This document shows positions 13,720 through 39,480 of a stretch of 39,480 bases of DNA, piece after piece. Positions within the stretch are counted from its first letter, which is position 1; each line of letters starts with the position of its first letter. A program made the translations under genes and the position numbers. Source of the stretch: a virus; the IMG/VR virus record IMGVR_UViG_3300050034_000025, positions 1-39,480 of that record. One strand, written 5' to 3'. Under the pieces are notes generated by a model that was not told the DNA's origin, did not search any database, and saw only the letters and a list, made by a program, of their open reading frames with translations.

Positions 13720-14502
13720 ATGATTCAGTTTGGTATCGGTGCAATTTCCGTTAACCCGGTCGGAGGCAATGAGGCGACGAATCCAACGCCGTATACCCTC
13801 TTGACGATTCAGGATGTGAGTCTGGACATTGACCAGAAGCTCGTCGAGTTGCAGGGGCAGCGCAAGATGCCTGATGACGTTGCGCCGAGCGACATTACCA
13901 TCAAGGGCAAGTTTAGTGTCGGTCGTATCAGCTTCGGCATGTGGAATAACATCATGTTCGGTGAGACGAACTTCGCAGTTGGAGGTATTTTCCCCGTCCC
14001 CGATGAGGAACACTCTATCCCAGCTTCCACTCCGTTCACCGTTACTGCGACCAACTCTGCGAAGTTTCAAGAAGACCGTGGCGTGCAGTATCTTGGCACG
14101 CCTCCCGCAGGAAACGCACAGGACTTGACCCGCGTCACCGGCACGCCGACCACTGGGCAGTATGCTGTTAGCGCTGGAGTCTACACATTTGCTGCTGCCG
14201 ATGAGGGGTTGTCGGTTCTCATCTCCTACACGCAGACGCTGACGACAGGTAACAACTTTACCGTGACGAACCAGTTGCAAGGATACGGCCCGGTGTTCTC
14301 GTTGCTTCTTCCGTTGCAGTATTACCTTGCAGAAGATTCGGCTGCGACGATTCCGTCGTCTATCTACCTTCCCAAGTGCCGCGCATCGAAGCTTGGCGCG
14401 GAGATGAAGCGCAACGATTACTTAAAGCCTTCCTTTGAGTTTGAGGCGTATCCCGATGCTTCAGGATATGCAATCCGTTACAGCAACGCGGGCGCTGCAT
14501 AG
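13720..14502 (+). CDS. Major tail tube protein with Ig-like insertion
   Basis: A 260-residue protein located between tail terminator and chaperones. The N-terminal part (LLTIQDVSLDIDQKLVELQGQRKMP) and the segment ITIKGKFSVGRISFGMWNNIMFG fit tail tube proteins, and the C-terminus is beta-rich. Residues about 136-172 are the recurrent Ig-like module (14125-14235; GTPTTGQYAVSAGVYTFAAAD), which would be displayed many times along the tail shaft. Function by context and pattern. Confidence 0.78.
   Translation: MIQFGIGAISVNPVGGNEATNPTPYTLLTIQDVSLDIDQKLVELQGQRKMPDDVAPSDITIKGKFSVGRISFGMWNNIMFGETNFAVGGIFPVPDEEHSIPASTPFTVTATNSAKFQEDRGVQYLGTPPAGNAQDLTRVTGTPTTGQYAVSAGVYTFAAADEGLSVLISYTQTLTTGNNFTVTNQLQGYGPVFSLLLPLQYYLAEDSAATIPSSIYLPKCRASKLGAEMKRNDYLKPSFEFEAYPDASGYAIRYSNAGAA
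14125..14235 (+). repeat. Ig-like module, copy b
   Basis: Encodes GTPTTGQYAVSAGVYTFAAAD then LISYTQ. Same residue pattern as copies a, c, d and e. Confidence 0.75.
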
Positions 14503-30827: not shown

Positions 30828-32512
30828 TTTCGCCCCTCCCCTTCTACGTCCTCGCCACGAATCAGGTCGATAGATACTGGACCTTTTTTGTCAAATGACT
30901 CGATGTGGAAATACACAGGCTTTGCGCTTGAGCACTTACCGTCAAATTCCACCTTGACAACTCGCGCCACTTCATCCTCAAACGTCATTCCTACCATCCA
31001 CTCAGCCCACCCGCCGATTGATGATGCGCCGCGCAAGCGCTGGCTGATTCTTCCAGATGCAGAAATCTTATTGTAGTGATGCAGCATGGTAAGCTGCGCC
31101 CCCGTGCGCTGCTGAATGTCGTTTAGCTTGCGCATGATTTCTGCCATCTGTGTGTTGTCGTTTTCATCGCTGCAATGTAACTTGTTGAACACATCAAAGA
31201 TCAGGAACTCAAGGTGCCGATTATTCGATTCCTGAATAAGCTCGTCCACTTGCGCTGGGTCATCGATCATAAGCCCGTCGGTGAGTCCGCGTGCGTTGCA
31301 ATAAATGTTCTGTGAAATCATAGCCATCTCTGTGGCGTTAAATCCGCGCCCAAGCATCAAGTGCGACATGCGCCATGCGGTAAGGCGATAATCATCCTCA
31401 CGCGAAACAATGCCGACGCGTGTAGGGATGGGAATCACAAACCCTAGAAAGTGTGTCCCTGTTGCAAGGCCAAGCGCAAGGTCCACAGAGACAAAGCTCT
31501 TTCCGGTCTTTGGCTCCGCGCCAATCATCCCGTTCCCGCCGCGCTGAATCACGTCCTGCACCAGCCAATCGACCTTATCAGTCGCGTGCGATAGGAACTC
31601 TTCTGCCGATACATAGAAGTTATGCTTTTTCTTCGCCTCTCCTTCCCACAGCGGTGCTTCCCGAATCAGCTTGCGCAGATCGGCGATTTCGGTGTGCTCT
31701 TTGAGCCAGTCAGAAACATCTGATTTCTCCGGCATGGTGTCGAATCGAACCCGGCGCACCGAAAGCGCACAACCAGCTACCGATGCACATACGTGATCCG
31801 CCCACGTGCGGCCAGCCTCGTCGTTATCCTCGAAGACCACTACAGCCTTACCGGCAAAGTACGCATTGTAGGCCGTGCGCCATTTGGGCGACTGCCCCGG
31901 CTGCCACGCGCCATCAAAGTTGCAGGTTGTGCAGATGCGCACCCCCGGTCGGGTCGGCCATAACTTCGGTGCCAATGCCTGCAAGTTGTCGCAGTCCTTT
32001 TCTCCTTCGGCACACAGAATCATGTTGGCCGTCACCACATCGGGCAGGTGGTAGAGCACATGCTCTGCATCTCCGATTCCGTAGGCCATCCTCCCGGTTG
32101 CATCCTCGTGGTAGACCTGGAATGTTTTGTGATGCTTCCCGCTCGCGTCCTGTGACTCGTAGCGGCGTTTCTGATACGCCAGACGACCATCCGCTCCACG
32201 GAAGTCATAACAGGCCGTCAGGGTGCCTTTACGAGCATCTACCAAATCCTTTGCTCCGGTAATCTCGCTGATCGCCTTGACCGCATCCTCACGGGTTGAC
32301 TTCGAGTAACGCATCTCGAAATCGACCAGACTGCCTTTTGCGCCACAACCGTGGCAGTTGAAACCGCCGTTTCCGTCGAGGAACACCGTGGCGCTGGCCG
32401 TGGCGTCATCGTGGAAGGGGCACTTGACAGCCACCTTGGAGTTGGACGGAATCGATCGGTCGAGTCGATGCTCGAAGTAGTGCCGAATTTGTTCAGTCGA
32501 AAAGCTCAGCAT
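30824..32512 (-). CDS. Bifunctional primase-helicase
   Basis: A 562-residue replication protein with three domains in order. A CHC2-type zinc finger (Cys31, His34, Cys53, Cys56; CPFHDD and FNCHGCG) recognises template. A TOPRIM catalytic region has AEGE (168-171) and EDND (228-231). A RecA/RepA-like ATPase follows with Walker A GAEPKTGKS (331-339) and Walker B LIFD (Asp440). It makes primers and unwinds DNA at the fork. It overlaps the initiator gene by 20 bases, with the initiator lying upstream. Confidence 0.92.
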   Translation of the reverse strand: MLSFSTEQIRHYFEHRLDRSIPSNSKVAVKCPFHDDATASATVFLDGNGGFNCHGCGAKGSLVDFEMRYSKSTREDAVKAISEITGAKDLVDARKGTLTACYDFRGADGRLAYQKRRYESQDASGKHHKTFQVYHEDATGRMAYGIGDAEHVLYHLPDVVTANMILCAEGEKDCDNLQALAPKLWPTRPGVRICTTCNFDGAWQPGQSPKWRTAYNAYFAGKAVVVFEDNDEAGRTWADHVCASVAGCALSVRRVRFDTMPEKSDVSDWLKEHTEIADLRKLIREAPLWEGEAKKKHNFYVSAEEFLSHATDKVDWLVQDVIQRGGNGMIGAEPKTGKSFVSVDLALGLATGTHFLGFVIPIPTRVGIVSREDDYRLTAWRMSHLMLGRGFNATEMAMISQNIYCNARGLTDGLMIDDPAQVDELIQESNNRHLEFLIFDVFNKLHCSDENDNTQMAEIMRKLNDIQQRTGAQLTMLHHYNKISASGRISQRLRGASSIGGWAEWMVGMTFEDEVARVVKVEFDGKCSSAKPVYFHIESFDKKGPVSIDLIRGEDVEGEGRK

Positions 32513-33293
32513 CTAAATCACCCATTCCGTTGCCGACTACAGGTGTTCCGTCCATGTGGTAAAACTTCTTCTTTGGCTTCGGCGGCTCGATCTTGCTTGG
32601 GTCGTCCAGCTTCAGAGGGTAGAGTCCCTGCCAACTCTTGCGCACGCTCTGGTCCAGAACGGCGGTAGGATCATCACCCGAATCTCGCAATCGCGTCAGC
32701 GCCACGACTTCCAGATTCTTTGCGTACTCGGTCAGCGGCTTCTTGCTCTTCGTCCGCATCTCCACGTACGCATCCCACGCCTCACGGTTGACCCAGTCGG
32801 GCAACTCAAACACCGCCGTTTTTGGAGAGCGCTTTTTGGCAGCGACAGGAGCCGAAGGCGACAATGCCTCTGTCTGTTCTGTTCTGTTCTGTTCTGTTCT
32901 GTTCTGTTCTGGTGCGTTACATTCTGCGTTTCTGCCCGTTACGCTAACGCCGTTACGTAACGTTTCACCCTGTTTCAATGCCTGTTTTTTCTGGCGAAAA
33001 CGCCGAACGCGATCAGCGGAAGAATCTGAAACGTACTGGCGCTTATCCCAGTTTGTAACGCTCCACTTTTCGCCAATGAACTTTTTGGCAATGAATTCGC
33101 GTTCGGTTTCCGCAAAGGATTCCTCGTTGCAGCCAAGCCCAAAAATAAGCTCGTCGCGAGACAGCTCCTCGGTCGGCCCTGCGCAGCGCAAGCAAAGCAA
33201 ACGCACAAAACGAATCTGAAGCGAGTCGCTCATTGTGCGCACTTTCGGGTCAGAAGCAAGCTCCGCATATAATCTGCACCACGTGTTAGCCAT
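32493..33293 (-). CDS. Replication initiator-like protein (lambda O position)
   Basis: A 266-residue protein upstream of the primase-helicase. The N-terminal part (CRLYAELASDPKVRTMSDSL, then RFVRLLCLRC and FGLGCNEESF) resembles the winged-helix start of phage replication proteins. The middle is low complexity, with a repeated NRTEQ motif encoded by a pentanucleotide tract (32876-32910), then a helical C-terminal domain. The gene may contain the origin, as lambda O does. Assignment is by pattern and context. Confidence 0.72.
   Translation of the reverse strand: MANTWCRLYAELASDPKVRTMSDSLQIRFVRLLCLRCAGPTEELSRDELIFGLGCNEESFAETEREFIAKKFIGEKWSVTNWDKRQYVSDSSADRVRRFRQKKQALKQGETLRNGVSVTGRNAECNAPEQNRTEQNRTEQTEALSPSAPVAAKKRSPKTAVFELPDWVNREAWDAYVEMRTKSKKPLTEYAKNLEVVALTRLRDSGDDPTAVLDQSVRKSWQGLYPLKLDDPSKIEPPKPKKKFYHMDGTPVVGNGMGDLDAELFD
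32876..32910. repeat. Seven tandem GTTCT units (pentanucleotide repeat)
   Basis: Seven exact copies of GTTCT on the plus strand, read as repeated N-R-T-E-Q on the minus strand. Gain or loss of one unit would shift the initiator reading frame. Confidence 0.95.
32915..32962. other. Candidate replication origin: CGTTAC iterons and a 12-bp palindrome
   Basis: CGTTAC occurs at 32915, 32937 and 32951. The last is part of the perfect palindrome CGTTACGTAACG (32951-32962), and the second sits in a near-palindrome. All are inside the initiator-like gene beside the pentanucleotide tract, as iterons lie inside lambda O. Confidence 0.4.
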
Positions 33294-38138: not shown

Positions 38139-38266
38139 TTCAAAACCTCGCAAATCTGGAAAATGTAGAAAACGATAACGGCAAACAATGCTCCAACAAC
38201 TGCGATCATTGCCCAGTAGAGGCTCGGTTCAATTACTCGCCAGCAGCACTTGACCTTTTCGATCAC
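38117..38266 (-). CDS. Small single-pass membrane protein
   Basis: A 49-residue protein starting at GTG 38266 behind GGAGGAACCTGC, coupled to the previous stop as GTGA. A hydrophobic segment (YWAMIAVVGALFAVIVFYIF) forms one transmembrane helix; cysteines flank it on both sides. Function unknown. Confidence 0.6.
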   Translation of the reverse strand: MIEKVKCCWRVIEPSLYWAMIAVVGALFAVIVFYIFQICEVLKCLNPHS

Positions 38267-38709
38267 GCAGGTTCCTCCGTTCCGTCGAGCAACGGGCCAC
38301 ACTCCCACGTGTACACTGGCTCGTCGTGCTCTTCTTCTGCCGGAATGACCGTCTCAGGAAGCACGCGCTCAGGACGCGCATCGACATGGCGAGTTCCCGT
38401 GGCTACCAGCTTGCAGACCTTATCGCGATCAGCAACAGCATCGATCGTAAATCCGTCTTCTTCGCCCTTGAGATGAAAGAACTGTTCGGTAAACTGCTTG
38501 TCTACCTTGCCAAAGCCGCGCGAAAACTTCTGAAGATACGCACGTTGTTCGTCGCCCCGGTCGCCCTGTTCGTACCACGCGTAGAACTTCAGAGCGGGCT
38601 TCTTCTCCCATCTCGGAAGATCAACTTCGGTAGGAATCGGAATATTCTCGTTCGCTTCCAGAAAGTCGGCCACTGCTCGTAAACCCTTGATTGCTGATTC
38701 CCTGTCCAT
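38263..38709 (-). CDS. Hypothetical early protein
   Basis: A 148-residue acidic protein beginning MDRESAIKGLRAVADFLEAN. The opening helix followed by IPIPTEVDLP recurs in small phage proteins that often precede recombination genes. The rest is mixed alpha-beta (FHLKGEEDGFTIDAVADRDK). It is the first gene after the strong leftward promoter, with a GGGGAG ribosome binding site. Function unknown. Confidence 0.7.
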   Translation of the reverse strand: MDRESAIKGLRAVADFLEANENIPIPTEVDLPRWEKKPALKFYAWYEQGDRGDEQRAYLQKFSRGFGKVDKQFTEQFFHLKGEEDGFTIDAVADRDKVCKLVATGTRHVDARPERVLPETVIPAEEEHDEPVYTWECGPLLDGTEEPA

Positions 38710-38764: not shown

Positions 38765-38907
38765 CAGAAAAATGCGAACTTTATTGACAATAGAATCAAC
38801 GAGTTGCATTTTAGCGTGTCGCATTGTGAGAATCTACGGGAGGACCACGTAGGATGCAACAAACTCGCGGTCGCACTCGACGGATGCGCATGGTTATACC
38901 GTTCAAG

Positions 38908-39181
38908 GTTGCGCTTGCTCAGCGCACTCATACTTCTTTGTAGCAACACTCAAAACTCGTATGATTCACTGCCCCTTGTTGCATCTATGCGATGCACTTC
39001 AACTATCTTGCGACCCTGTTCTCGTCAATCATCGCGTCCTACAAGGGAGTTGCATCTGCTCGATGCACTGAAACTGCCTTGTGACTTTGTGCTATTCCTT
39101 GACGCGTTGCGCTTTCTCGGCGCACTTATACGTCTATAAATAGCCCTTGTATATTGTTGCGCTTTATCAGCGCACTGATAC
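38908..39181. repeat. Array of five 26-bp palindromic elements
   Basis: Units at 38908-38933, 38978-39003, 39049-39074, 39106-39131 and 39156-39181. Each starts with GTTGC, has a 6-base inverted repeat around a 5-base centre, then CACT and a tail ending in AC. Stem arms are TGCGCT/AGCGCA in units 1 and 5, TGCATC/GATGCA in units 2 and 3, and TGCGCT/GGCGCA (one G-T pair) in unit 4. Spacers are 44, 45, 31 and 24 bases. The surrounding 38765-39206 holds no gene. Confidence 0.9.
39007..39093 (+). repeat. Secondary 16-base motif after palindromes 2 and 3
   Basis: CTTGCGACCCTGTTCT (39007-39022) and CTTGTGACTTTGTGCT (39078-39093) each begin 29 bases from the start of their palindrome and match at 12 of 16 positions. 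Confidence 0.6.
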
Positions 39182-39206: not shown

Positions 39207-39332
39207 TTATCGGGTTTTACCAAACGCCGCCAGCAACACCCCTCTAGCAATTACCGACACGAATATGAGTCCGACCGCCCACTCGCCAATATCATTGATG
39301 AGAGCGGCTATCTCTGTGGCGTTAAGATTCAT
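39207..39332 (-). CDS. Small membrane protein
   Basis: A 41-residue protein beginning MNLNATEIAALINDIGEWAV, with a hydrophobic segment (WAVGLIFVSVIARGVLLAAF) and a basic end (GKTR). It has a very strong AAGGAGTAGTA ribosome binding site. It follows the tandem-repeat gene in the leftward block and is the last gene before the palindrome array. Function unknown. Confidence 0.68.
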   Translation of the reverse strand: MNLNATEIAALINDIGEWAVGLIFVSVIARGVLLAAFGKTR

Positions 39333-39373
39333 TACTACTCCTTCCCCCGCGATACGCACGGGATAGGTTAACG
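39333..39373 (-). repeat. Intergenic element, copy 2
   Basis: Read leftward: Arg codon, TAA, CC, then CCCGTGCGTATCGCGGG and a Shine-Dalgarno sequence. It is nearly the same as the element at 182-223. Confidence 0.8.
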
Positions 39374-39480
39374 TCCTAGTGCCTTCTTGATTTTTGACGG
39401 CGCATAGAGTTCGGTGACACTCTGCGGGATAACGAGGTCTTTGGCGCTGGTCAGACTGTCCAGGTAGAGCTCGGTGACAC
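39368..39480 (-). CDS. Tandem-repeat protein, C-terminal part (continues from position 1)
   Basis: The frame enters from the window end in phase with the repeats at 1-180 once the 8-base overlap is removed. It carries a repeat unit (ELYLDSLTSAKDLVIPQSVT) and ends ELYAPSKIKKALGR at TAA 39368. The last units diverge (AKD, PQS), as is usual at the edge of a tandem array. With the overlap collapsed, the visible protein would have about 95 residues, a minimum because units may have been lost in assembly. Confidence 0.7.
   Translation of the reverse strand, partial: VTELYLDSLTSAKDLVIPQSVTELYAPSKIKKALGR

Follow-up and report, generated by a model that had tools for sequence, protein, structure and literature searches.

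What purpose is served by five short palindromes packed into a non-coding region of a virus genome? The window (an IMG/VR virus record of 39,480 bases, analysed at its full length) has the gene content of a temperate tailed phage, with genes for terminase, portal and tail proteins, the anti-repressor Ant, a RecE-like exonuclease, an O-like initiator and primase. A 60-bp tandem repeat is common to both window ends (1-154 and 39405-39480), and in the gene order of contig G017 window positions 39336 and 635 adjoin, so that the two ends are neighbours. Because the G017 order joins the ends and both ends lie in the same tandem repeat, the record is probably a nearly complete circle that was cut inside that repeat; synteny with G017 across the contig ends suggests that it is close to complete. 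No whole-genome relatives of the window were found, and BLAST of the cluster region and the window's first 25 kb against phage records gave no match. Relatives of the window's exonuclease were also absent from IMG/VR, so conservation was judged on G017, G023, G022/G013/G001 and L011 only. Within the O-like replication gene (32493-33293), the pentanucleotide TCTGT is repeated 8.8 times (32869-32911), possibly forming a phase-variable tract. Similar elements (AGAATCAAC...GTGT...CGCATTG) precede two leftward gene blocks, at 38791-38829 and 1418-1454, and may be a shared control element.

The first-pass annotation described five 26-bp palindromic units with compensating arm changes and start-to-start spacings of 70, 71, 57 and 50 bases. 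All of this holds: the units start at 38908, 38978, 39049, 39106 and 39156, within 274 bp. A degenerate consensus with at most three mismatches has exactly five matches in the window and no others, and 100 dinucleotide shuffles of the window gave a mean of 0.16 matches and never reached five. The arms are TGCGCT/AGCGCA in units 1 and 5 and TGCATC/GATGCA in units 2 and 3, and unit 4 has TGCGCT/GGCGCA, with one imperfect pair. An Rfam search gave no match, and a tRNA scan found none.

Irregular spacing and divergence had been taken as arguments against CRISPR. This view is overturned by related elements, in which the same unit forms regular arrays beside a Cas12 gene. Scanning IMG/VR with the degenerate consensus returned 48 stretches, many with 10-24 copies at a spacing of 70-74 bases. 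The stretches with regular copies are CRISPR arrays with a 37-nt repeat and unique spacers of mostly 33-36 nt (about 34 nt), of which we collected 185. Read on the minus strand, the repeat is GTAGCAACGTGGTTTGAGTGCATCGCGTAGATGCAAC and the spacer comes next. The 26-bp unit is thus the spacer-proximal crRNA handle of the repeat; in type V repeats the hairpin usually lies beside the spacer. Nor does divergence argue against CRISPR, as true arrays of the same repeat family likewise show stem variation between repeats, though less than the clusters do. In the arrays of L017, L024 and L027, repeats vary from unit to unit with compensating stems (GCATC/GATGC and GCACT/AGTGC side by side), which is unusual for CRISPR. 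Also present are ten-unit array-like series that keep mainly a 21-nt hairpin core (L008:9452-10254, L023:7610-8412 and L030:1394-2196), on contigs where cas12 was not found. The full-repeat pattern had no match in a set of one genome per GTDB species.

Three independent signs agree on a minus-strand reading of the repeat. The cas12 gene and array are co-directional in this sense in G004, G005 and G019; in the same sense, a TATAAT-like box precedes the first repeat by about 10 nt in several array leaders; and with this reading both protospacers described below share a 5'-CTTC flank. The structure-forming strand of the units is therefore very probably the minus strand. A plus-strand reading of the motif was considered and dropped, because leaders, cas12 direction and PAM all point to minus.

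Read leftward, the cluster begins after a small ORF on the same strand (39207..39359), which has no Pfam match and whose DNA is common to G017 and G023. The first unit in this direction is unit 5 (39156..39181, handle GTATCAGTGCGCTGATAAAGCGCAAC), followed by unit 4 (39106..39131, handle GTATAAGTGCGCCGAGAAAGCGCAAC), of the G-C stem type. The guide position of unit 4 is the 20-nt sequence GCGTCAAGGAATAGCACAAA (39086..39105), identical in all phages that have the unit 3-4 dimer. Units 3 and 2 extend to the full 37-nt type V repeat. Unit 3 (39049..39085, handle 39049-39074) has a handle identical to an array handle and 2 mismatches over 37 nt, and is followed by a 45-nt gap to unit 2, leaving a spacer length of 34 nt. 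Unit 2 (38978..39014, handle 38978-39003) also has a 26-nt handle identical to an array handle, with 3 mismatches over 37 nt, and is followed by a 44-nt gap to unit 1. Unit 1 (38908..38933, handle GTATGAGTGCGCTGAGCAAGCGCAAC) is of the G-C stem type, with a degenerate 5' repeat part and at least 4 mismatches to any array handle. Downstream is a leftward gene for a 148-aa protein (38263..38709, minus strand) with no family match; its sigma-70-like promoter is at 38764-38737. When the unit 3-4 dimer was folded as a single RNA, nothing worth reporting appeared beyond the hairpins (z -1.3).

How do such clusters differ from the regular arrays? Arrays have 44-47 nt between 26-nt handles. The inter-handle gaps are 24, 31, 45 and 44 nt in the window; 12, 21, 22, 31, 40 and 45 nt in a 12-unit cluster of G001/G013/G022; and 13, 18, 41 and 46 nt, plus one of 249 nt, in L011. 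Cluster gaps are thus shrunk relative to arrays, and several, at 12-18 nt, are too short for a guide. The near-identical repeats expected of a CRISPR array or mini-array are not seen in the window, where arms and 5' repeat parts differ between units, and the spacings of 70, 71, 57 and 50 depart from the 70-74 that predominate in true arrays. What is kept is the handle. When 167 distinct array repeats were compared with 22 cluster units, the invariants AGTGC...G...A...GCAAC of the arrays were complete in every cluster unit, including the loop G and A, which the detector did not require. Most cluster units are degenerate at positions -37 to -27, in the 5' third of the repeat. Next to the invariant part of the stem, almost every array repeat has an A-T pair, whereas roughly half of the cluster units have G-C. 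Handles with the G-C stem occur in only eight IMG/VR contigs, and those examined all lie outside regular 71-nt arrays.

Compensating change also extends beyond the window. A comparison of 29 handles (26 distinct), drawn from irregular clusters on several phage contigs, gives 97.4% paired cells, a percentage inflated by the partial use of pairing to pick units, which does not affect the loop invariants. Both sides changed in 27 cells, compared with 11.5 in shuffles (none of 500 reached 27), and the covariation score of 0.44 dropped to 0.02-0.09 in slid controls. Arms changing without compensation in relatives had been named in advance as the outcome that would speak against the palindromes; in this test compensation held.

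The gene adjacent to the arrays encodes a protein of about 745 aa that matches Cas12f/Cas12u1 models and a Cas12f1-like TNB domain. A profile search ranked Cas12m structures first, and the best fold matches of a predicted model of modest confidence are also to Cas12m, at 13% identity. Families, profile and fold thus all indicate a protein folded like Cas12, with RuvC/TNB at its C terminus. It resembles subtype V-M (Cas12m; PMC11013384; reviewed in PMC11656645) in its best matches by sequence and fold, in a TTN-kind PAM and in carriage on mobile elements. The protein differs from V-M in its length (about 745 versus about 600 aa), in the remoteness of the identity (the 13% of the fold match) and in the RuvC triad, degenerate in V-M, for which D/E-E-D positions are retained in the effector alignments and appear intact; two loci also have cas4 and cas1. 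In these loci, on phage contigs (L101:5977-9953 and L097:6001-9914), the order is cas12-cas4-cas1-array; their Cas12m-related effector of about 750 aa has apparently intact RuvC residues and may deserve its own subtype assignment.

The effector gene is present in G004, G005, G019 and G021 and was not found in the window or 20 other records searched. Cas1 and Cas12 were not detected in the window, G017 or G023, an absence to be read with the caveat that virus records may be incomplete. We identified the effector gene in three Acidobacteria MAGs. Since the gene occurs in 3 of 398 genomes of the family Acidobacteriaceae and the handle motif in 1 of 398, the Cas12 system resides mainly on mobile elements, although such elements are often missing from MAGs. 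Phage genes, among them those for primase and terminase, are common to the carriers G013, G005 and G001, and integrase and RecT genes occur on related contigs; G005 and G013 overlap over 34.6 kb at 99.97%. Other phages of Acidobacteriaceae, mostly temperate, and mobile elements of this family carry the Cas12m-like effector. Single handles also occur in such elements. One lies directly upstream of the cas12 start codon (L056; G005:10277-10297), where the cas12 mRNA leader may bind its own product in autoregulation, and others are at the start of a cytosine methylase gene in Cas12-bearing phages (G004:11516 and G021:50555).

The cluster behaves as a module whose gene context differs by phage, following either a small ORF opposite endolysin or an acetyltransferase gene. 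The cluster flank and small ORF of the window recur in G017 and G023, whose cluster consists of three units. A 122-bp block of the window that includes units 3 and 4 (39049-39170) shows 94% identity to the 12-unit cluster of G001/G013/G022; these phages have little else in common with the window at the DNA level, and their population also has cas12 and arrays. In the window, G017, G023 and G001/G013/G022 the 20-nt guide is identical, and handles and neighbours differ. By a hand count on a small sample, none of the 20 sites of this guide changed, compared with 3 of 6 free sites of the unit 3 handle. The guides of units 1-3 differ between phages. A TTGACA-18-AAGTAT promoter lies ahead of the first handle in G022 and L011 (G006), with its end about 15 nt away. 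In the window, no promoter belonging to the cluster itself was recognised.

Which DNA do these systems target? We searched 288 handle-adjacent guides against 975 kb of related contigs. Only two near full-length matches were found, both with a CTTC PAM. A spacer of the G002 type V array matches the window at 13802..13835 (minus strand, 30 of 34 identical, PAM CTTC at 13839-13836 on the minus strand), and a spacer from an array common to G001 and G013 matches G017:6905 at 29 of 35 positions. With reversed spacers as controls, no full-length match had fewer than 9 mismatches. A handle cluster is present in both target phages, and cas12 was not detected in either. For the cluster guides, no target with a PAM was found in the 975 kb of related contigs, the relevant viromes being thinly sampled. 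The exact 20-mer guide occurs in IMG/VR only within the clusters themselves, and against 398 Acidobacteriaceae genomes it gave five 2-mismatch hits, compared with four in the reversed control. The unit 3 guide had no seed match, and guide seeds with a TTN PAM, near cas12 or elsewhere, were at chance level.

With slightly better than even confidence, we interpret the five units as a decoy cluster of several units, resembling an RNA anti-CRISPR (Racr), in a Cas12 conflict between viruses. The basis is at the level of sequence: handle identity, RNA-type covariation, Cas12 and arrays in other phages, the failure to detect cas12 or cas1 in the window, and a protospacer with PAM in the window. Transcription of the cluster, Cas12 binding and inhibition are steps that we infer. 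The cluster would be read leftward as a chain of handle hairpins, each of which the Cas12 of a rival would bind and perhaps excise. As the downstream stretch would be too short or without a target, Cas12 would be tied up in useless complexes. The window virus would in this way make decoy RNAs that jam the CRISPR enzyme of its rivals. Handle conservation, the many units and the guide length lost in several of them fit occupation of Cas12 by decoys, and loss of the 5' repeat third, shrunken gaps and retention of the invariants all favour such a role. Also in its favour are stem covariation, the position of the examined G-C-stem handles outside regular arrays, the two CTTC-flanked spacer matches to cluster phages, the promoters ahead of the clusters of G022 and L011, and the absence of Cas12 from a record that seems close to complete. 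Against it, the two protospacer pairs are the only protospacer evidence, the window cluster lacks a recognised promoter, and the unchanged 20-nt guide beside varying free handle positions suggests that the guide matters, which a decoy role does not explain. A pure 'disarm the rival' role in the cas12-bearing G001/G013/G022 population would need timing, which suggests expression of the cluster on entry or induction and of Cas12 in the lysogen. A more specific form, to which we give somewhat less than an even chance, is a chain of crRNA-handle mimics with strengthened stems, directed against Cas12 borne by rival phages rather than by the chromosome, in which the conserved guide may provide a further, programmed activity.

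The perfect conservation of one 20-nt guide makes a compact guide array, locked against spacer acquisition, the main rival. Such an array would make working crRNAs (a 26-nt handle with a guide of about 20-34 nt) and use a Cas12 already resident in the cell to silence or cleave a different element, in the manner of virus-borne mini-CRISPR arrays. Units 1-3 keep the array spacing of 70-71, units 2 and 3 retain the whole repeat, many cluster gaps (21-22 or 31 nt) have a usable guide length, and guides of units 1-3 differ between phages while GCGTCAAGGAATAGCACAAA does not. We consider this possible but unlikely, as no target was found for any guide (IMG/VR, 398 Acidobacteriaceae genomes and 975 kb of related contigs) and gaps of 12-18 nt cannot hold one. 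Truncated spacers, lost 5' repeat parts and unit deletions between phages (window versus G017) would also be seen in the decaying remnant of a CRISPR array without present function. This is improbable given handle bases that are invariant in 22 of 22 units, stems kept by compensating change, a perfectly conserved guide and a block 94% identical between otherwise unlike phages. The single handles just before the cas12 start codon (G005:10277) and near the methylase gene start (G004:11516) raise a further idea, that leader handles bound or cut by Cas12 set expression, for instance in feedback on cas12. For the window this is very improbable, as its cluster has five units and no cas12 and the downstream gene has its own promoter-like site. 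Among the roles proposed by the first-pass annotation, that of small structured RNAs is supported. Operators, stoperators, or origin or partition iterons would suit repeats that are palindromic and non-coding in a temperate phage with genes of the anti-repressor type, and symmetric half-sites should then be conserved; instead the arms change together as in RNA, conserved flanks are asymmetric, the units have the identity of crRNA handles and gene contexts in other phages are unlike, so that a role as DNA sites is barely credible.

The decoy reading places the cluster near two known kinds of viral CRISPR mimicry. Racrs, or solitary repeat units, are competitors of crRNAs for Cas proteins, and confirmed examples include one of type V-A; a promoter shortly before such units has also been described (Camara-Wilpert et al., 2023; PMC10651486). 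Like these, the window-type clusters are virus-encoded, intergenic CRISPR-repeat mimics without cas genes in the window (the G001/G013/G022 population also has cas12), they keep the Cas-binding part of the repeat, and in two related phages they lie directly behind a promoter. A repeat matching that of a CRISPR system available in the hosts is also seen: units 2 and 3 have handles identical to those in the arrays of phages that bear Cas12. Unlike Racrs, which have one unit, they form clusters of five to twelve irregular units (five in 274 bp in the window) with G-C-swapped stems, and the matching CRISPR is largely virus-borne. The comparison with virus-borne mini-CRISPR arrays (PMC6858448) also extends to viral repeats without cas genes, presence in viruses of one host community and evidence for virus-on-virus targeting. 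Mini-arrays have 1-2 spacers matching rival viruses and host-like repeats and leaders, whereas in the window-type clusters no target was found for any guide, many spacers are truncated and the 5' part of the repeat is degenerate.

The published Racr finder excludes full repeat matches that are no more than 100 bp apart (PMC10651486), so handle clusters would be skipped. Racrs are known as solitary mimics, and with clustered ones set aside a whole class could be missed. Within one phage population, some members have Cas12 and arrays and others have handle clusters, and array spacers match the latter with a consistent PAM, so that CRISPR conflict between viruses and the RNA countermeasure to it become directly testable. 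The findings also draw attention to a Cas12m-related effector that is apparently intact and uses compact crRNA handles.
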